A stretch of 64,000 bases of DNA. Origin: Polaribacter sp. Q13. GTDB lineage: Bacteria; Bacteroidota; Bacteroidia; Flavobacteriales; Flavobacteriaceae. Positions 8,249-43,037 of this stretch are shown here, piece after piece. Positions within the stretch are counted from its first letter, which is position 1. The number at the start of each line of letters is the position of its first letter. The stretch lies in contig NZ_CP074436.1 of the NCBI RefSeq assembly GCF_016858305.2, positions 3,864,001 through 3,928,000 on the forward strand, given 5' to 3'. The position numbers and the translations under genes are program-made. The notes beneath the pieces were generated by a model that saw only the letters and a program-made list of their open reading frames with translations, was not told the DNA's origin and searched no databases.

Positions 8249-8256
8249 TATATTTG
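8249..8256 (+). promoter_or_regulatory. candidate -7 box for the gat/aspS operon
   Basis: TATATTTG fits TAnnTTTG exactly. Transcription starting 6-7 bases downstream would give a 5' leader of only about a dozen bases before the Asn-rich leader peptide. No clear -33 TTG is seen. Confidence 0.5.
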
Positions 8257-8273
8257 TCATCAGTATAACAAAA

Positions 8274-8321
8274 ATGACAAACAATAATAACAATCGTAAT
8301 TTCAATAATCCTAATTGTTAG
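8274..8321 (+). CDS. Asn-rich leader peptide of the gatC-gatA-gatB::aspS operon
   Basis: A 15-codon frame, ATG to TAG, encodes MTNNNNNRNFNNPNC: nine of fifteen residues are asparagine, five in a row. It lies just after a TAnnTTTG box and just before a perfect intrinsic terminator (8356-8386), followed by the genes that make Asn-tRNA(Asn) by transamidation. The layout is that of a ribosome-mediated attenuator. If charged Asn-tRNA is scarce the ribosome stalls on the Asn run, the segment at 8326-8331 stays free and pairs with the 5' arm of the terminator. If the ribosome reaches the stop at 8319 it covers that segment and the terminator forms. The role is inferred from sequence and geometry; Asp codons are absent, so the sensed species would be Asn-tRNA. 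Confidence 0.85.
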   Translation: MTNNNNNRNFNNPNC

Positions 8322-8325
8322 GATG

Positions 8326-8364
8326 GGAAGGTTGTTGTTTAGAAATATATAAATAAAGCCTTCC
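8326..8364 (+). promoter_or_regulatory. antiterminator pairing of the Asn attenuator
   Basis: GGAAGG at 8326-8331 is complementary to CCTTCC at 8359-8364, the core of the 5' arm of the terminator, so the two structures exclude each other. The left arm begins 5 bases after the leader stop codon, inside the footprint of a terminating ribosome. A small dyad CCTAA/TTAGG (8310-8314, 8318-8322) spans the leader stop. Confidence 0.75.
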
Positions 8365-8386
8365 AAATTTTGGAAGGCTTTTTTTT
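8356..8386 (+). terminator. attenuator terminator ahead of gatC
   Basis: AAGCCTTCC (8356-8364) pairs perfectly with GGAAGGCTT (8372-8380) around a seven-base loop and is followed by a run of T. It lies between the leader peptide and gatC, so it must be read through for the operon to be expressed. Confidence 0.9.
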
Positions 8387-8405: not shown

Positions 8406-8672
8406 ATGAGCAAAATAATGACGGTAGACATTTTGTCTAGCATTAAAGGAGCAAAACCATCGGAATCGGTGAATCAGTTATTTGAAGTAATTAAAAAGGC
8501 AAATACATCAAATTCTACTTTTAATACCAATCATAATAATGCGGTGTCTTTAGATGATTTAAGAGAAGATGTGGTTATTGATAGTCCGCAAGCGGAAAAA
8601 CAAATCATCATCGAAAACTTTCCGAAAGAAAAAAACGGATTTTTAGTAGTTTCTAAAGTGATAGAAGAATAA
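8406..8672 (+). CDS. gatC: GatC-like subunit, N-terminus divergent
   Basis: 88-residue protein placed immediately before gatA (2 bases apart). Start chosen at the ATG of 8406; an earlier in-frame ATG (8370) lies inside the attenuator stem. The C-terminal part has the GatC pattern: LREDVV near residue 52, then conserved spacing to an A, P and the ending GFLVVSKVIE that resembles the usual GFFxVPKVI. In GatCAB this belt wraps around GatA and GatB. The N-terminal half lacks the canonical LARLELSEEE helix and instead has SIKGAKPSESVNQLFEVIKKA and an Asn/Ser/Thr-rich linker. It is either a remodelled GatC or a protein that kept only the belt. Confidence 0.7.
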   Translation: MSKIMTVDILSSIKGAKPSESVNQLFEVIKKANTSNSTFNTNHNNAVSLDDLREDVVIDSPQAEKQIIIENFPKEKNGFLVVSKVIEE

Positions 8673-8674
8673 TT

Positions 8675-10075
8675 ATGGAATCGCAAATACGTAAAATTCA
8701 TCAGCAATTGGTGAACAAAGAAATTTCGTGTACACAATTAGTGCAAGAAAGATTAGATTTATTAAAATCGAACACCCACAATACAGTCAATTCACTTTTA
8801 GATACTTTAGCATTAGAATTAGCTGCAAAAGTAGATGCTAAAATAGCAGACGGACAAGAAATTGGTTTGTTAGAGGGAATTCCATTCGGAATTAAAGATG
8901 TGTACATGGTTCAAGGAACTTTAACAACGGCAAGTTCAGATTTATTAAAAAAATACAAATCGCCATATACAGCAACTGCCATTCAGAAATTATTTGATGC
9001 AGGTGCCATTCCTTTAGTAAAAGAAAATTGTGATTCTTTTGGGCATGGTTCTTCTTCTGAAAACACCATTTTCGGAGCTGTTAAAAATGCGATTAATACA
9101 GCGTTGGTTTCTGGAGGATCAAGTGGAGGTTCTGCAGTAAATGTAGCAAAAGACTTTACGGTATTTTCAATTGGTGGAGACACAGGAGGTTCTGTACGTC
9201 AACCGGCAGGTTACAATAAAATATACGGATTAAAACCAACCTACGGAAGAATTTCTAGATTCGGATTAATGGCGTACGCATCGTCTACAGATTGTGTTGG
9301 TCCGATTGCAAAATCTATCGAAGATATTAGAATTGTTTTAAATGTAATGAGTGGTAAAGATATTAAAGATCTAACTACGTATCCATCAGAAGCAATATCC
9401 GAAGAAACTATTTTAAATGCTGATGGAATTAAAACTGTTGGGTATTTTAAAAATTTCATTGAAAATGATGCAATTGATGCGCAAGTAAAAGCAGATTTTT
9501 TATCAGCCATCAAAAAAATAAAAGCCAAAGGAATTGAAGTTAAAGAATTAGATTTCTTTGAATCTGATACCTTAGTTTCTACATACTATACATTGGCAAT
9601 GGCAGAAACAGCATCGAATCTTTCTAGGTTAGATGGTACCAATTACGGAAATAGAATAGAAGGCGATACTTTAAAAGATACGTATTCTATTACACGATCA
9701 GAAAATTTCTCTGAAGAATCTAAACGTAGAATAGTTGGTGGGAATCAAGTATTATCGCAAGGTTTTTCTGATGAAATCTATTTAAAAGGATTGAATTTAA
9801 GAGATCAAATTGTAACTAATTTCGAAAAAGATTTTAAAGTGGTAGATATTATTTTATCACCTGTTACGCCAAATTCGCCACCAAAAATAGGCGATAGTTT
9901 AAAAGATCCGTTGGCAATGTATTTGTCGGATGCGTATACGGTTGGTTTTAGTTTAGGGCAATTGCCAACGTTAACAGTGCCACAAGGAACAGAAACAGGA
10001 TTACAAATTACGGCAGCAAAAAATAATGACGAACTTGTTTTGAAGTTTGCTAACTTCTTAAAAGATACGATATAA
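8675..10075 (+). CDS. gatA: Asp/Glu-tRNA amidotransferase subunit A
   Basis: 466-residue amidase-signature enzyme that frees ammonia from glutamine or asparagine for transamidation of misacylated tRNA. The Ser-cisSer-Lys triad regions are visible: GIPFGIKDVY with the catalytic Lys near residue 73, then VSGGSSGGSAVNVA and GGDTGGSVRQPAGY. KPTYGRISRFGLMAYASS follows, the family hallmark for the glutamine pocket. Its stop overlaps the start of the next gene by one base (TAATG), pointing to coupled translation with gatB::aspS. Confidence 0.96.
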   Translation: MESQIRKIHQQLVNKEISCTQLVQERLDLLKSNTHNTVNSLLDTLALELAAKVDAKIADGQEIGLLEGIPFGIKDVYMVQGTLTTASSDLLKKYKSPYTATAIQKLFDAGAIPLVKENCDSFGHGSSSENTIFGAVKNAINTALVSGGSSGGSAVNVAKDFTVFSIGGDTGGSVRQPAGYNKIYGLKPTYGRISRFGLMAYASSTDCVGPIAKSIEDIRIVLNVMSGKDIKDLTTYPSEAISEETILNADGIKTVGYFKNFIENDAIDAQVKADFLSAIKKIKAKGIEVKELDFFESDTLVSTYYTLAMAETASNLSRLDGTNYGNRIEGDTLKDTYSITRSENFSEESKRRIVGGNQVLSQGFSDEIYLKGLNLRDQIVTNFEKDFKVVDIILSPVTPNSPPKIGDSLKDPLAMYLSDAYTVGFSLGQLPTLTVPQGTETGLQITAAKNNDELVLKFANFLKDTI

Positions 10076-13000
10076 TGGAACTGGAACAATTAAATGAGCT
10101 TATTAAAAAGCACGACTTAGAGTTAGTAATCGGTATTGAAACACACGTTCGATTAAATACAAAATCAAAGTTATTCTGTTCTTGTGCAAATCAAGAAATA
10201 GAGCAACCAAATCAGAATATATGTTCGGTTTGTACTGGGCAAATGGGTGTTTTACCATCGATAAATAAAGAAGCAATTACCAAAGCTATTTATTTTGGAA
10301 AAGCGGTAAAATCTACTTTTTCTAATGAAGTTATTTCTTGGGATCGTAAACATTATGAATATCCAGATAACCCAAAGAACATTCAAATTACACAGTTTCA
10401 CAATCCTGTAATTCCAGACGGACAAGTTTCTTGTTATAGAAATGATGGTTCGCAATTTACGGTGAGTTTAACGCAAGTTCATATTGAGGAAGATGCTGCA
10501 AAATTGATGCACGAAAAGAAAATTTCTTTAGTCGATTTTAACAAAGCAGGTGTTCCGTTAATCGAGATTGTTACCGATCCTTGTATTCGTAATATTGAAG
10601 ATGCTTCTACGTATGCGCAATACATTCAAAGAATTGTTCAGAATTTAAAAATCTCTGAAGCAAATCTTGAAAAAGGTGAGTTTAAATCGGATGTTTCTGT
10701 ATCACTTAGAAAAAAGCGTACGTATGATTTAAACCCAAGAACAGAAATCAAAAACTTAAATTCTTTTAAGTTTATGGTAGATGCGTTAAAGGAAGAAGTT
10801 GAAAAGCAATTAAATTATTACGTAGAAAATAAAGCGTTTAGACCAGACCAAACTACGGTTTTATGGGATGCCGATTTAAAGCAAACCAAAACGATGCGTA
10901 AAAAGGAATTTGAAGCAGATTATCGTTTTATTTCTGAGCCAGATTTACCTTTTGTCAACATTAAAAAAGTAGTAGAAAGTATTGATGTAGATATCAGTTC
11001 TTTGCCTTTTGCCGTAGAATCTATTTTGATAAATGGTGGCGTTTTACCACAAGACGCAAAGTTTTTTACAGCAGATTCTTTACGTTCTGCAGTATTTGTA
11101 GCTATCAATAATAAAATTAACGATGCTTCTTTTGTAGCCAAAACATTGGTGAATAATATTGGTGCAGATGAGTATGAAAATATTCATGATGTAGCTCAAT
11201 TAACAGAGATTTTCCAATTATTTAAAGACGATAAAATTACCTCTGTTTTAGTACAAAACGGAATTACATCGTATTTAAAAGATAGGAACTTCGATTACAA
11301 CAAGTATTTTGAAGACAATACTATTTCTGAAGATAAAATTAAAGATGCCGTTAAAAAGGTGATTGCAGAAAATGAAGCAATTGCAAACGATATTAAAGCA
11401 GGAAATCAAGGGAAAGCTGGTATTCTTGTTGGTAAAGTAATCGGTATTATAGGTAAAGGAGCTTCAGGGAAAGTTATCCGTGAGGAGATATTAGATGCAC
11501 TTAGCAATTCGCCTTTAGCGGTTAGCGAAGAGCCAATAGCTAATAGCCAACAACAGCAAATAGCCAATAGCGAAAAGCCAAAAACGGAAGAAGAATTACC
11601 TAAAGTTCCTATAATAATCAAGGAAAACTACAGAACGCATAAAATTTCTCAGTTATCAGAAGAAACAATTAATGAAGAAGTTACATTGTCTGGTTGGGTT
11701 TCTAGTGTGCGTGATCACGGAGAATTAATTTTTATCGATTTAAGAGATTCTAGCAATCAAGTTTTTCAAGTACGTTTAAGTAGAGAAACTTTTCCTAATT
11801 TAGATGAACTTGTAAAGTTGAAATCAGAATCTGTTATTTCTGTAACCGGAGTAGTGGTTCAGAGAAACGAAGATGATTATAACGCAGGTTTAAGAACCGG
11901 AAAAATAGAATTAGAAACATCTGTATTAGAAATTTTAAACTTATCTAAAACCTTGCCTTTTGAAATAAAAAGAGCAATGAAAACGAATGAAACTACTCGT
12001 TTTCAATACAAGTTTTTAGATCATAGAAATGATGAGGTTCGTAAAGCAATTGTAAATAGACATAAAGTAATTAAGTTACTTCGTGATATTTTAGATGAAG
12101 AAGAGTTTTTAGAAATTGAAACTCCAATTTTAACTGCAGGTACAGATGAAGGAGCAAGAGAATTTATTGTTCCTACAAGAAAACAAGCAGGTTCTTTTTA
12201 TACATTACCACAAGCACCACAACAATTTAAGCAAATGTTAATGGTTGGTGGATTTGAAAAATATTTTCAAATAGCACGCTGTTTTAGAGATGAAGATTCT
12301 CGTGGAGACAGACAGCCAGAATTTACACAATTAGATATTGAAATGGCATACGCAAGTATGCAGCAAATCATCGATTTAAACACTAAAATGTTTAATGAAG
12401 TTGTGAATAAAATTTATGGTAAAAAATGGATTTTACGTCCGTTTGAAGTAATTACGTATAAAGATGCAATGGATAAATATGGTTGTGATAGACCGGATTT
12501 ACGTTATGGTTTGCAAATGCAAGACATTACAGATATTGTAAAAGATACCACTTTCCAGGTTTTTAGCAAACCAATTGAAGATGGTGGAATTGTAAAATGT
12601 ATTAAAGTTTCTGCAGCAGAGCAAGGAAACAAACGTATGTCTAAAGGACAAATAGAAAACTTAACTGCCATTGCACAACAAAATGGTTTAGGTGGTTTGG
12701 CTTATATTATTGTGAATGAAAACGATTTGCAATCGCCAATTATTAAGTTTTTAGGCGAAGAAATTGCAGCCTATATTATAAAGGCTACAGATGCACAAGT
12801 TGGTGATATTGTATTTTTCTCAGCAGCAGATTATGCAACCGCTAACAAGGCGTTAGATGCGGTACGTCAAGAAATGGGACGTATTTTAAAGTTGATCAAT
12901 CCGAAAGAACTAAGACCAGCTTGGGTTGTAGATTTTCCAATGTTTGAAAAAACTGATGAAGGAAGATGGACGTTTACGCACAATCCTTTTTCTATGCCAG

Positions 13001-13410
13001 CTATCTACGATTTAGAAAAGCACATGACTGGAGAAGGCGAGGAGATAGGTACAATTATCGCGCAACAATACGATTTAATCTTAAATGGTTATGAGATTGG
13101 TGGAGGTTCTGTTCGTGCTCACAAAGCAGAAATTTTAGAAGCAACCTATAAAAATATGGGTTACGATAAAGAAGGAATGATGAAAAGTGTTGGAACCATG
13201 TACAAAGCTTTCCAATACGGAGCGCCACCTCACGGAGGAATTGCTTGGGGAGTAGATCGTTTAATGATGATTTTAGAAAAGAAAGCGTCTATTAGAGAAG
13301 TAATGGCTTTCCCTAAAACAGGTTCTTCTGAAGATTTATTATTTAATGCGCCTTCTATTTTGAGTGATAAGAAAGTGGAAGAGATGAATGTAAAGATTAT
13401 GAGGAAGTAG
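10075..13410 (+). CDS. gatB/aspS: GatB::AspRS fusion (amidotransferase subunit B fused to aspartyl-tRNA synthetase)
   Basis: A single frame of 1111 residues. Residues about 1-475 are GatB: IGIETHVRL, the CSC...CSVC zinc-type knot (near 40-62), ASTYAQYIQRIV, and a C-terminal YqeY-like tail domain ending GKASGK/REEIL-like. Residues about 477-510 are a Ser/Gln/Glu-rich linker. From about 515 it is a complete bacterial AspRS: the OB anticodon domain (GWVSSVRDHGELIFIDLRD), motif 1 (EIETPILT) and motif 2 (CFRDEDSRGDRQPEFTQ, near 735-750). The GAD insertion lies at about 830-980 and motif 3 is GGIAWGVDRLMMIL near 1055. His548 in RDHG sits where nondiscriminating AspRS such as that of Pseudomonas has His, so charging of tRNA(Asn) with Asp is expected (inference). 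This covalently joins the first and second enzyme of tRNA-dependent Asn formation. Such fusions are annotated in some flavobacteria, as far as I recall. Confidence 0.95.
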   Translation: MELEQLNELIKKHDLELVIGIETHVRLNTKSKLFCSCANQEIEQPNQNICSVCTGQMGVLPSINKEAITKAIYFGKAVKSTFSNEVISWDRKHYEYPDNPKNIQITQFHNPVIPDGQVSCYRNDGSQFTVSLTQVHIEEDAAKLMHEKKISLVDFNKAGVPLIEIVTDPCIRNIEDASTYAQYIQRIVQNLKISEANLEKGEFKSDVSVSLRKKRTYDLNPRTEIKNLNSFKFMVDALKEEVEKQLNYYVENKAFRPDQTTVLWDADLKQTKTMRKKEFEADYRFISEPDLPFVNIKKVVESIDVDISSLPFAVESILINGGVLPQDAKFFTADSLRSAVFVAINNKINDASFVAKTLVNNIGADEYENIHDVAQLTEIFQLFKDDKITSVLVQNGITSYLKDRNFDYNKYFEDNTISEDKIKDAVKKVIAENEAIANDIKAGNQGKAGILVGKVIGIIGKGASGKVIREEILDALSNSPLAVSEEPIANSQQQQIANSEKPKTEEELPKVPIIIKENYRTHKISQLSEETINEEVTLSGWVSSVRDHGELIFIDLRDSSNQVFQVRLSRETFPNLDELVKLKSESVISVTGVVVQRNEDDYNAGLRTGKIELETSVLEILNLSKTLPFEIKRAMKTNETTRFQYKFLDHRNDEVRKAIVNRHKVIKLLRDILDEEEFLEIETPILTAGTDEGAREFIVPTRKQAGSFYTLPQAPQQFKQMLMVGGFEKYFQIARCFRDEDSRGDRQPEFTQLDIEMAYASMQQIIDLNTKMFNEVVNKIYGKKWILRPFEVITYKDAMDKYGCDRPDLRYGLQMQDITDIVKDTTFQVFSKPIEDGGIVKCIKVSAAEQGNKRMSKGQIENLTAIAQQNGLGGLAYIIVNENDLQSPIIKFLGEEIAAYIIKATDAQVGDIVFFSAADYATANKALDAVRQEMGRILKLINPKELRPAWVVDFPMFEKTDEGRWTFTHNPFSMPAIYDLEKHMTGEGEEIGTIIAQQYDLILNGYEIGGGSVRAHKAEILEATYKNMGYDKEGMMKSVGTMYKAFQYGAPPHGGIAWGVDRLMMILEKKASIREVMAFPKTGSSEDLLFNAPSILSDKKVEEMNVKIMRK

Positions 13411-13563: not shown

Positions 13564-13881
13564 TTATTTTGTTCTTTTAATTTTAGGTGGACTTTGTCGA
13601 GTATCAAAAACATCACTAATTTCAATCTGATTTTCTTTACTATTTATCCAATAAATTAACTTGTAGTTTTTGTGAATTAAATATCTAAATTCTTCTTTTC
13701 GGTTTTTTAGTAATTCCTCAATTTGCCCTATTTCTGGTTGATTTTTTAAAGTAAGAGTTTCGTTATATATTCCTTTTACAAGTTTTTTAGAAATTACGAT
13801 TCCAGCTTTTTCTCGATAATATTTATAAATTATTTCAAGTTCATTTTTAGCAAATTCAGTCCAAAATATGTTTAATTCCAT
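13564..13881 (-). CDS. ParE/RelE-type toxin
   Basis: 105-residue protein of the RelE/ParE plasmid-stabilisation fold. It opens with the family pattern (W-E-A-x-N-E-L-x-x-I-Y-x-Y-Y), has the Arg-containing strand RYLIHKNYKLIYWI and ends VFDTRQSPPKIKR, where R and the final strand are typical of this family. Whether it poisons gyrase (ParE) or cleaves mRNA (RelE) cannot be decided; the IYKYY...DTRQ signature is shared by many flavobacterial members annotated either way. Its start overlaps the antitoxin stop by 10 bases, so the antitoxin is translated first. The gene is convergent with aspS and lies inside the duplicated aspS end. Confidence 0.85.
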   Translation of the reverse strand: MELNIFWTEFAKNELEIIYKYYREKAGIVISKKLVKGIYNETLTLKNQPEIGQIEELLKNRKEEFRYLIHKNYKLIYWINSKENQIEISDVFDTRQSPPKIKRTK

Positions 13882-14114
13882 TCTTCAATTTGGGCTTTCA
13901 ATTCACTAGAACTTATTAATCTTCCGTTTTCTGAGTCGTTCATAGATTGGTCGATTCGTGAATTAAATTCCTCAATGGACATAGGTTTAAAATCCTCTTG
14001 TCCAGCTTTTAGATTCTCTTTTTTTAGTATTTTTTCAAAAAGAGAAATAACTTCCTCACTTTGTAGTTTAAGAAATTCTTGTACAAATTCTATTTTTCGA
14101 GCTTCTAAATTCAT
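13872..14114 (-). CDS. antitoxin of the ParE/RelE-type pair
   Basis: 80-residue acidic, helical protein directly upstream of and overlapping the toxin gene. It has no recognisable HTH; its C-terminus (SMNDSENGRLISSSELKAQIEEWN) resembles the toxin-wrapping tail of small antitoxins, where residues such as GRLISSSELK are common in flavobacterial addiction modules. Assignment rests on size, position and this tail. A leftward TATCTTTG box at 14131-14138 is a plausible promoter for the pair. Confidence 0.75.
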   Translation of the reverse strand: MNLEARKIEFVQEFLKLQSEEVISLFEKILKKENLKAGQEDFKPMSIEEFNSRIDQSMNDSENGRLISSSELKAQIEEWN

Positions 14115-16365: not shown

Positions 16366-16396
16366 TTGCCTATTTTAAAAATCTATCTTACTTTTG
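16366..16396 (+). promoter_or_regulatory. trp operon promoter
   Basis: TTG (16366-16368), 20 bases, TACTTTTG (16389-16396): a good match to the Bacteroidota TTG / TAnnTTTG promoter. Initiation is expected within a few bases of the trpL start codon, so the leader transcript is nearly leaderless. Confidence 0.7.
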
Positions 16397-16403
16397 TTTC
16401 ATA

Positions 16404-16454
16404 ATGAAAAATAATACAATAAATACAGGTTGGTGGAACTCTCTTAATAATTAA
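16404..16454 (+). CDS. trpL: trp leader peptide
   Basis: 16 codons encoding MKNNTINTGWWNSLNN, with tandem Trp codons at positions 10 and 11. It sits between the trp promoter and an intrinsic terminator ahead of trpE. Stalling at the Trp pair when Trp-tRNA is uncharged would leave GTGAGA (16455-16460) free to pair with TCTCAC (16499-16504) and break the terminator. Confidence 0.92.
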   Translation: MKNNTINTGWWNSLNN

Positions 16455-16504
16455 GTGAGAAGAAACCTATATGTATAAAATATATTAAAAAAGGCTTATC
16501 TCAC
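16455..16504 (+). promoter_or_regulatory. trp antiterminator
   Basis: GTGAGA directly after the trpL stop region pairs with TCTCAC, which spans the end of the 5' arm and the loop of the terminator. Pairing can extend (AAG with CTT) across one bulge. It is mutually exclusive with the terminator. Confidence 0.7.
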
Positions 16505-16628: not shown

Positions 16629-18020
16629 ATGAAAAAATTACAATTTAAGACAATTCATAAAACAAAAATGGCAGATACAGTTACTCCAGTAGGGCTGTAC
16701 TTACGTTTTAGAGATAAATTCGCTAACACGCTGTTGTTAGAAGGTTCCGATTATCACAGTAAAGAAGAAAGCTTTTCTTTTATTGCTGTAGAACCTATTG
16801 TTACTATGAAAGTAGATGATTATCAGTTTACAGTTTCACATAAAGGAACGCAAATAGATACACAACCTATCTATAAAAACTTTTATGATTTATATTATAA
16901 ATTTAAGGATGCGATAGATTTAGATTGTCCTGCCGAGTTAAAACCCTATAACGGATTATATGGGTATACAACCTTTGATTCTGTTCAGTATTTCGAGAAT
17001 ATTAAATTCACAAACAAGAAAGCACCTTCTGCAATACCAGAAATGCAATACAGTTTTTATCGTTTTGTTATTGTTATCAATCATTTTAATGATGAAATGA
17101 CGCTGATAGAAAATATAGAAGAAGGTACAGCTTCTCGTATAGATGAAGTTGAAACCATTATTGATGCACAAGCATTTAATACACTAAAATTCGAAATTGT
17201 AGGTGAAGAAACTTCAAATATAACTGGCGAAGAATTTAAAGAGTATGTGCGAAAAGCAAAATCTCATTGTAAAAGAGGAGATGTTTTTCAACTAGTTTTA
17301 TCTCGCCAATTTCAACAAAAATTTAAAGGAGACGAGTTTAATGTGTATAGAGCATTGCGTTCTATCAACCCGTCGCCATATTTGTTTTATTTCGATTACG
17401 GGTCTTTCAAATTAATGGGTTCTTCACCAGAAGCGCAAATTAAAATATCCGCAGGTAAAGCGACGATCAATCCAATTGCAGGTACGTTTAGACGAACGGG
17501 AGATATGGCAGAAGATATTAAGTTGGGTAAAAAATTATCCGCAGATAAAAAGGAAACCGCAGAACACGTAATGTTGGTAGATTTAGCACGTAACGATTTA
17601 AGCAAACATGCCGATAAAGTTACCGTTGAGGTATTTAAAGAAGTACAATATTTTAGCCACGTGATTCATTTGGTTTCTACTGTTAGAGGAGAAATTAAAG
17701 GAAACCCAATTGAAATTGTTGGAGACACTTTTCCTGCAGGAACTTTAAGTGGAGCGCCAAAATACAAGGCAATGCAGTTAATCGATAAATACGAAAACCA
17801 AACACGCGGATTTTACGGTGGAGCAGTCGGAATTATCGGTCTAGACAACTCTGTAAATTTGGCCATTGCCATTCGTTCGTTTGTAAGTAAGAACAACGTT
17901 TTATATTCGCAAGCGGGAGCAGGAATCGTAATTCATTCCGACGAAGAAAAAGAATTACAAGAAGTAAATAATAAATTAGCAGCGTTAAAAAAAGCGTTGA
18001 TTTTAGCAGAAAATATTTAA
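16629..18020 (+). CDS. trpE: anthranilate synthase component I
   Basis: 463 residues, the chorismate-binding subunit that makes anthranilate with ammonia from TrpG. The C-terminal chorismate-binding domain shows KRGDVFQLVLSRQF, SPYLFYFDYG, the GTFRRTGDMAEDI motif and HVMLVDLARNDL. FPAGTLSGAPKYKAMQLID and the end GAVGIIGLDN...AIAIRSF complete it. The N-terminal domain carries the Trp-binding LLEGSDYH-type segment (SDYHSKEESFSFI), so feedback inhibition is likely in addition to attenuation. It is the first structural gene of the operon. Confidence 0.96.
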   Translation: MKKLQFKTIHKTKMADTVTPVGLYLRFRDKFANTLLLEGSDYHSKEESFSFIAVEPIVTMKVDDYQFTVSHKGTQIDTQPIYKNFYDLYYKFKDAIDLDCPAELKPYNGLYGYTTFDSVQYFENIKFTNKKAPSAIPEMQYSFYRFVIVINHFNDEMTLIENIEEGTASRIDEVETIIDAQAFNTLKFEIVGEETSNITGEEFKEYVRKAKSHCKRGDVFQLVLSRQFQQKFKGDEFNVYRALRSINPSPYLFYFDYGSFKLMGSSPEAQIKISAGKATINPIAGTFRRTGDMAEDIKLGKKLSADKKETAEHVMLVDLARNDLSKHADKVTVEVFKEVQYFSHVIHLVSTVRGEIKGNPIEIVGDTFPAGTLSGAPKYKAMQLIDKYENQTRGFYGGAVGIIGLDNSVNLAIAIRSFVSKNNVLYSQAGAGIVIHSDEEKELQEVNNKLAALKKALILAENI

Positions 18021-42520: not shown

Positions 42521-42525
42521 TTAAG

Positions 42526-42916
42526 TGGAGACGCCGAGAATCGAACTCGGGTCCAAACAAGCAGCCAAAAAGCTTTCTACATACTTAGTTCTTTCTTGGT
42601 TTTCGACCAAAAGCTGATTAAGAACAATCTGCTTTTAGCTTATCTTCTTTAGTTTCAGAAATTTGCCGAAGCTTCAAATTTCCTATATTTACTTTTACGA
42701 TATCCAAAAGTGAAACGCCGTAAATCAGGGCTTTCCGTGGACATAAAGCTTGCACACCTAGTGTGCCGAGGCCAATCCTACTATAGTTCGGATTAAGCAG
42801 CTAAAGCGTAGTTATCTTCGCCGTTTAAAAAGTTGAAATTAGGTTTTACGAGTGTTATTTCATAACTCGGTATGCTTACAAATTCACTGTCCTCGCTGTC
42901 AAAACCAGTCGTCCCC
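42526..42916 (-). ncRNA. ssrA: transfer-messenger RNA
   Basis: Read on the minus strand, the 5' end GGGGACGACTGG and the 3' end CGTCTCCA form the tRNA(Ala)-like acceptor stem. The T-arm GTTCGATTC (TpsiC) with CGAG...CTCG stem is just before the 3' end. The tag frame at 42822-42793 encodes GEDNYALAA and stop TAA. The CCA end is not encoded. tmRNA rescues stalled ribosomes with SmpB, which is not in this window. A structured RNA lies only 13 bases upstream. Confidence 0.96.
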
Positions 42917-42929
42917 GTTTTAATAGTTT

Positions 42930-43024
42930 GGGCGTTACCACGTAAAAAAACGTGGTCAGGCTTTCCGTTATATCTTTTTTAATTGAAAAAATTAAAAAAG
43001 GATGTCACTTCAATCCTTAACGCG
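42930..43024 (-). ncRNA. structured RNA directly upstream of ssrA (Flavo-1-like candidate)
   Basis: The minus-strand segment begins GCGTTAAGGATTGAAG and ends TAACGCCC; GCGTTA pairs with TAACGC to close the outside. Inside are GGATTGAAGTGACATCC (a small hairpin), a long A/T hairpin, GGAAAGCCTGACC and an ACCACG/CGTGGT-type hairpin. A second copy with the same ends (GCGTTAAGGATTGAA...GAAAGCCTG...ACGCCC) is at 57253-57374. The conserved ends resemble my memory of the Flavo-1 RNA family of Rfam; that identity is unchecked. It lies between a good -7 box and ssrA, so it is either a separate RNA or the 5' leader of pre-tmRNA. Confidence 0.65.
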
Positions 43025-43029
43025 GTCTG

Positions 43030-43037
43030 CAAAAGTA
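43030..43037 (-). promoter_or_regulatory. -7 box for the structured RNA and ssrA
   Basis: Minus-strand TACTTTTG, TAnnTTTG type. Starting 6-7 bases further would place +1 at the first bases of GCGTTAAGG, the edge of the structured RNA. Confidence 0.6.

Follow-up and report, generated by a model that had tools for sequence, protein, structure and literature searches.

A predicted asparagine leader peptide attenuator before the gatC-gatA-gatB::aspS operon of Flavobacteriaceae

A short Asn-rich reading frame precedes the gatC-gatA-gatB::aspS operon of Polaribacter sp. Q13, and we hold with high confidence that this region is a ribosome-mediated transcription attenuator, which would sense Asn-tRNA(Asn) and control tRNA-dependent asparagine synthesis. 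The leader has a conserved coding frame, its RNA has three mutually exclusive structures, the element is linked to gatC, and genomes with the gatB::aspS fusion exclude full-scoring asparagine synthetase. We further believe, as the likely but less secure part of this reading, that the GatB-AspRS single-chain transamidosome is the asparagine synthase of the cell and that its product, Asn-tRNA(Asn), is read by a first Asn leader peptide, with neither free Asn nor a protein regulator involved.

The leader region and its operon

The window, which is the whole stretch of 64,000 nucleotides analysed in this study, comes from a genome assembled as a single contig of 4.42 Mb. Among 80 GatB loci (L147-L226), the nearest to the GatB of the window was that of Polaribacter (92% to L149), and the GatB part of the window fusion was 98% identical to that of a Polaribacter sp. 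20A6 protein. A box of the TAnnTTTG type lies at 8249-8256 on the + strand and reads TATATTTG; in the first alignment, the box was TATATTTG or TATCTTTG in 13 of 13 leaders. We take TAnnTTTG to be the -7-type consensus of Bacteroidetes, on which the box is considered a putative promoter, and inspection by eye found no clear -33 element upstream of the leader. The leader ORF (8274-8321, + strand, MTNNNNNRNFNNPNC) starts 17 nt past the box and ends 33 nt ahead of a 12-bp terminator. It has 15 codons, nine of them Asn, and consists of ATG ACA, five consecutive Asn codons (AAC AAT AAT AAC AAT), then CGT AAT TTC AAT AAT CCT AAT TGT and the stop TAG at 8319-8321. The earlier note on this DNA had described the box, the frame with its five consecutive Asn codons and a perfect terminator, and all of them were found in place, the last as a 12-bp stem at 8355-8381. 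Among the 453 ATG-started ORFs of 10-30 aa on both strands of the window, the leader alone contained at least 40% Asn, and none of the 9595 ORFs in 20 single-strand mononucleotide shuffles reached 60% or more.

The three genes downstream are on the + strand. The gatC gene (8406-8672, 88 aa) was assigned by its position in the operon and by PF02686 (23.0 bits, cut-off 23), and its TIGR00135 score of 24.1 bits was below the cut-off of 47.1. The gatA gene (8675-10075, 466 aa) matched PF01425 with 371 bits and TIGR00132 with 429 bits, the latter below the cut-off of 481. The third frame (10075-13410, 1111 aa) is the gatB::aspS fusion, in which the GatB and AspRS models both scored above their cut-offs in one frame; relatives of this protein are already named bifunctional GatB/AspS by NCBI. 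Downstream of aspS, two small overlapping frames (105 and 80 aa) on the - strand at 13564-14114 look like a RelE/ParE-type toxin-antitoxin pair when judged by eye, and at 42523-43035, also on the - strand, a tmRNA adjoins a Flavo-1 RNA. In the window genome, scans of 340 nt ahead of the stand-alone aspS and of 382 nt ahead of asnS gave no Asn-rich frame, and one Leu-rich TTG frame that precedes asnS was put down to chance.

RNA folds, reading frame and conservation of the leader

The intrinsic terminator (3:4) at 8355-8386 on the + strand has a 12-bp stem (8355-8366/8370-8381), a 3-nt loop and a T run; two terminator-like sites were counted, which are the same hairpin on each strand, compared with a shuffle mean of 0.2. 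Three further segments of the + strand take part in the alternative folds. Segment 1 (8286-8303) contains Asn and Phe codons and provides the left arm of the protector (1:2) with 8286-8295 and 8301-8303. Segment 2 (8326-8341, GGAAGGTTGTTGTTTA) is both the right arm of the protector and the left arm of the antiterminator, and segment 3 (8350-8364) is the right arm of the antiterminator and includes the 5' part of the terminator. When the full leader RNA was folded, the protector stem paired 8286-8295 with 8330-8339 and 8301-8303 (TTC) with 8327-8329. This stem, which was absent from the earlier note, encloses a stop-codon hairpin at 8308-8324 on the + strand (AUCCUAA-UUG-UUAGGAU, 8308-8314/8318-8324) as the apical part of 1:2. 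When the RNA was cut before the right terminator arm, the antiterminator formed from 8326-8333/8357-8364 and 8335-8341/8350-8356. The competing pairing proposed earlier, 8326-8331 with 8359-8364, is present as GGAAGG with CCTTCC and is extended by this fold, and its left arm does fall within reach of a ribosome at the leader stop. GGAAGG begins 5 nt past that stop. The transcript fold was 4.4 SD below dinucleotide shuffles (z -4.4), none of 200 being as low. The same alternative folds were obtained for the window and 12 relatives, each folded singly, and the consensus fold of the first alignment forms the protector and the terminator.

For the modelling, the footprint of the ribosome was assumed to reach 13 nt downstream of the first A-site nucleotide. 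For a ribosome placed at the stop codon, this footprint contains the first part of segment 2 and, in all 77 distinct leaders, the entire antiterminator core. With the A site at codon 5, the pairing probability of the antiterminator in these leaders had a mean of 0.96 and a lowest value of 0.20. For RNA that ends with the left terminator arm and carries no ribosome, the mean at equilibrium was 0.80 (range 0.01-1.00), and the value in the window was 1.00. Because the ribosome-free RNA prefers the antiterminator, absence of translation does not by itself ensure the off state, for which 1:2 would have to fold first. The region has a protector that involves the regulatory codons and a terminator between the leader and gatC; by folding and the assumed footprint, its antiterminator is blocked with the ribosome at the stop and free when the ribosome is stalled.

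In the mechanism that we propose, the ribosome would translate the leader behind RNA polymerase. When Asn-tRNA(Asn) is plentiful, the ribosome would reach the TAG at 8319-8321 and its footprint would cover GGAAGG at 8326-8331; no antiterminator could then form, the terminator at 8355-8386 would fold, and transcription would stop ahead of gatC. When Asn-tRNA(Asn) is scarce, the ribosome would stall in the Asn codons and mask segment 1, so that segment 2 would pair with segment 3 and the polymerase would continue into gatC-gatA-gatB::aspS. The pausing and protector hairpin is probably made up of the stop-codon hairpin and the stem that joins the Asn codons to segment 2, and without translation the off state would depend on the protector stem forming first. 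Stalling and read-through, like the specificity of the enzymes discussed below, are what we infer from these structures and sequences.

GatB homologues were found in 23 of 149 family genomes, and every one was an open frame of 1115-1123 aa, that is, the fusion. In 22 of the fusion genomes the upstream sequence was readable; the leader was present in 13 of these, the window genome included, and absent in 9. A covariance model (R1) was built from these 13 leaders and searched in 397 family genomes, with stricter filters by which weak leaders were possibly missed. The search gave 37 strong matches, the window's included (at least 105.8 bits; next 58), and gatC was directly downstream of all 37. 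The fusion was found in 59 of the same 397 genomes; 36 of these have a leader match and 23 are without a strong one, and in one of the 23 (G140) the upstream DNA is off its contig. The genome of the 37th match (G124) has gatC on a contig that stops before gatB. In that assembly, contig 155 carries the leader and gatC at its end and no gatB was found elsewhere, so the missing gatB is probably an assembly gap. In the 80-locus set (L147-L226), the leader was present in 55 and absent in 24, and one locus had no upstream DNA. Weak model matches (up to 58 bits in the 397 genomes and up to 42 bits in the 80 loci) were not counted. Among those in the 80 loci, eight are on the reverse strand, seven of which overlap the terminator palindrome and one of which (L167) lies elsewhere.

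The earlier note had proposed an alignment of the upstream regions of relatives, and in such alignments the Asn run, the stop, the antiterminator and the terminator are conserved together in all three sets (13/22, 37/397 and 55/80). It had also held that absence of the leader from relatives with the same operon would speak against its reading. Such absence does occur, in 24 of 79 loci, but these are a minority and 55 of 79 keep the leader. In a quick GatB tree, the leaderless loci are scattered, and the leader trait takes 13 changes, of which at least 7 are forced by well-supported branches. Because the three largest upstream-neighbour groups mix loci with and without the leader, this distribution is most easily read, from the sequences compared, as repeated loss in place, although gain by exchange may also have contributed. 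The motif TTTYGTARTTT, which is promoter-like in sequence, was found no more than 80 nt from gatC in 23 of the 24 leaderless loci compared with 0 of 55 loci with the leader. The exception is L151 (Polaribacter sp. Hel1_85), where an unrelated hairpin and T run, AAGCTCGATCGAGCTT, stand before gatC at 1724-1745 with no Asn leader.

For coding and covariation, 85 leaders were collected (55 from L147-L226, that of the window and 29 from other genomes), of which 77 were distinct once eight duplicates had been removed. Their 67 different peptides are 14-17 residues long and contain 6-10 Asn; among model matches, this richness is partly by construction, as 13 leaders went into the model. In the six positions preceding Phe, AAY made up 425 of 462 codons and AAR none. 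An ATG 9-42 nt upstream of Phe was in the leader frame in 76 of 77, compared with 2 and 0 in the other frames, and the stop was TAG in 76 of 77. Length differences between leaders are whole numbers of codons, and the last residue is unconstrained although the frame remains open. In L172, the stop is further downstream, apparently by one extra base before the usual TAG, and the sequence of the stop hairpin is kept. The coding signature, with translation predicted, carries a run of codons cognate to the product of the operon.

On the 77 distinct rows, in an alignment that was fitted to the model and hence biased towards it, 96.7% of 2307 cells paired, compared with 43-63% when the arms were slid and 95.6% when the partners were shuffled, so much of the leader pairing is invariant. 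Changes on both sides were seen in 41 cells and 7 pairs, compared with 16.6 and 3.6 after shuffling, respectively. The first alignment, of 13 leaders, had 99.0% of its 390 cells paired versus 41-63% when slid, with one pair changed on both sides and no excess over shuffles. A C-starting codon (CGT, CTT or CTA) two before Phe was accompanied by G in segment 2 in 20 of 21 leaders, and an A-starting codon by A in 46 of 53 (Fisher 2.8e-11 over the 74 of 77 leaders that were readable, with relatedness not removed). This linkage is what the shifted register of the stem requires; in the window, the G pairs with the C of AAC. In the single row of L159, a C-G pair of the stop hairpin became U-A on both sides, alongside a Pro to Ser change. 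Compensating changes are shown by the protector stem, the stop-codon hairpin and the terminator.

Asparagine metabolism and competing readings

Among the 149 family genomes, AsnB was above cut-off in 108 and AsnA was found in 10. AsnB above cut-off or AsnA was present in 0 of 23 fusion genomes compared with 114 of 126 others (Fisher 1.3e-18, the genomes not being phylogenetically independent). The window genome had no Asn_synthase match at E 0.001, and 9 of the 23 fusion genomes encode AsnB-like proteins of about 570-640 aa below the cut-off. In G131, a genome of the window's genus without the fusion, an asnB match with one TGA and one TAA lies on contig 1 at 285799-287433. All 23 fusion genomes have a stand-alone AspRS-like frame (585-669 aa) beside the fused AspRS, and 10 tested genomes without the fusion have the stand-alone AspRS only. 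AsnRS was present in 34 of 34 genomes tested and GlnRS in 24 of 24, and both counts take in all 23 fusion genomes. The earlier note's suggestion that Asn is made by transamidation is strengthened by these results, with fusion genomes lacking a full-scoring asparagine synthetase and possessing an extra AspRS. In terms of gene content, the operon seems to replace asparagine synthetase. GatCAB with its GatB-fused AspRS would put Asp on tRNA(Asn) and then amidate it to Asn; as no AsnA or AsnB was found in the window genome, the operon would be the asparagine route there, and the switch would sense the operon's own product.

The His of the RDHG motif, in the anticodon-binding domain, governs the acceptance of tRNA(Asn) in non-discriminating bacterial AspRS. 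The fused AspRS has RDHG in 23 of 23 cases, and the same motif was found in three displayed PDB chains titled Asp/Asn ligase and in 4o2d. The stand-alone AspRS has RDKG in 19 of the 20 fetched (one unread) and in the window genome, and 1c0a and 1eqr, presumably E. coli AspRS, read RDLG. The second reported position of non-discriminating AspRS is Gly in P. aeruginosa; the fused AspRS has RNEDDYN where 4wj3, which we take to be the P. aeruginosa protein, has RPEGARN, and the match is not clear. The fused AspRS probably serves tRNA(Asn). As had been remarked earlier, Asp codons are missing from the leader of the window in spite of aspS in the operon, and only two Asp residues occur across all 77 leaders; this can be explained by the housekeeping AspRS being a separate gene, with the fused AspRS probably serving tRNA(Asn). 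The U1-A72 pair specifies the amidation of Asp-tRNA(Asn), as stated in an excerpt of PMC9976931. It was present in tRNA(Asn) of all 24 genomes read (15 with the fusion and 9 others; 25 were searched and G011 was unread) and was rejected as a discriminating test because genomes of both kinds share it.

If the element were a structured RNA recognized by a protein or small ligand, with the small frame incidental to the pairing of an A-rich RNA, this could account for AATTTCAATAATCCTAA, whose nucleotides change little or not at all among the first 13 leaders, beyond the needs of the peptide. Such an RNA would hardly restrict the third positions of the Asn run to T and C, confine the start codon to one frame, or change length by whole codons with a free last residue and an open frame (the shifted stop of L172 being the one exception), and no Rfam family reached its threshold at the site. 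The C/T rule comes partly from pairing with the G of segment 2, so the coding test is not fully independent; even so, we give this explanation very little probability. That the terminator is merely the end of the upstream gene's transcript, with an unrelated small frame, agrees with the upstream gene being on the same strand. However, 14 different groups of nearest upstream frames (chosen by a mechanical rule, on either strand) adjoin the element, whose position ahead of gatC does not change, and a leader belonging to the upstream gene was rejected on this ground. Box, leader, antiterminator and terminator are also conserved together. We regard this explanation as extremely improbable.

The attenuator might instead sense a general slowing of translation or the total use of Asn, while GatCAB does other work such as repair or the making of Gln-tRNA. 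AsnRS in every genome tested means that GatCAB is not formally needed for charging tRNA(Asn), and the U1-A72 pair of tRNA(Asn) is the same with and without the fusion, both of which would suit this explanation. Gln-tRNA, however, needs no GatCAB where GlnRS is present, the exclusion of AsnB/AsnA and the RDHG of the fused AspRS point to Asn synthesis, and Asn codons predominate in the leader (6-10 of 14-17). We regard this explanation as very improbable. The reading of an Asn leader attenuator on gatC-gatA-gatB::aspS, as the earlier note had interpreted the region, is supported by coding, pairing and conservation, and the regulation itself is predicted.

With this reading, asparagine and the tRNA-dependent synthesis of amino acids would come within the scope of leader-peptide attenuation. 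The reading also suggests, in testable form, a reason for the retention of GatCAB in some Flavobacteriaceae that have both AsnRS and GlnRS: we propose that GatCAB and the fused AspRS stand in for asparagine synthetase and are under the kind of control usual for amino-acid biosynthetic operons. In marine bacteria, the conserved leader could readily serve to report how far Asn-tRNA is charged, and model R1 could be a new RNA family for annotation.

Relation to known attenuators and transamidation systems

A T-box or another known Rfam element was considered and rejected, with nothing above threshold at the site: no T-box match reached threshold in the window or appeared among 23 site matches up to E 5, and of the amino-acid leaders, Phe_leader and Thr_leader scored 28.8 and 26.2 bits on the + strand at the site against a threshold of 55. 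T-box control has been described for gatCAB and aspS of Clostridium acetobutylicum. There, as is inferred here, an indirect Asn-tRNA pathway is attenuated according to the charging of tRNA(Asn); the T-box RNA binds tRNA directly without translation, whereas here the ribosome would read a leader peptide. In the excerpted text of PMC2494555, one of three aspS genes of C. acetobutylicum is under a T-box, and no T-box is given before the amidotransferase genes surveyed.

Leader-peptide attenuation itself is classical. Clues for it before amino-acid operons, and conserved structured 5' regions, are reported for the transcriptome of Flavobacterium psychrophilum in PMC9723704, whose text names pheA, hisG, alaS and others, and not gatC. 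In the text of a premature-terminator survey (PMC2965389), the words Bacteroid, Flavobacter, gatC, aspS and asparagin are all absent. Among the matches listed, as titles and starts of abstracts with most subscription journals outside the search, an Asn leader, attenuation of gatCAB and a GatB-AspRS fusion were undescribed.

According to PMC4206432, Deinococcus and Thermus, which have AsnRS, GlnRS, GatCAB and two AspRS without asparagine synthetase, form Asn on tRNA(Asn). The fusion genomes have the same set; their second AspRS is bacterial-type, fused to GatB and in most loci preceded by the leader, whereas that of Deinococcus and Thermus is archaeal-type. The latter is also a separate protein. 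In E. coli pheM-pheST, the charged tRNA that is sensed is made directly by the operon under the control of the leader peptide. The present leader would sense, in the same way, the charged tRNA that its operon produces, but pheM-pheST concerns Phe and an ordinary synthetase, with no amidotransferase.

Within the window, the Rfam Bacteroid-trp leader (RF01692) was found at 16384-16500 (51.4 bits, cut-off 49), with a frame MKNNTINTGWWNSLNN and a terminator before a trpE-like gene at 16629. Lying 8 kb away, this leader serves as a positive control for a switch of this type. Both consist of a leader peptide and a terminator in Bacteroidetes, and Bacteroid-trp differs in its Trp codons, its trp operon and its sequence. 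Proteobacterial trp, his, ilv and thr attenuators have an ORF rich in codons for the product, 1:2, 2:3 and 3:4 pairings and a switch driven by the ribosome footprint. The leader of gatC-gatA-gatB::aspS resembles them in its product-codon ORF, protector, antiterminator, terminator and predicted footprint switch; it differs in that the amino acid is Asn, the operon makes an aminoacyl-tRNA and not a free amino acid, and the host is a flavobacterium.
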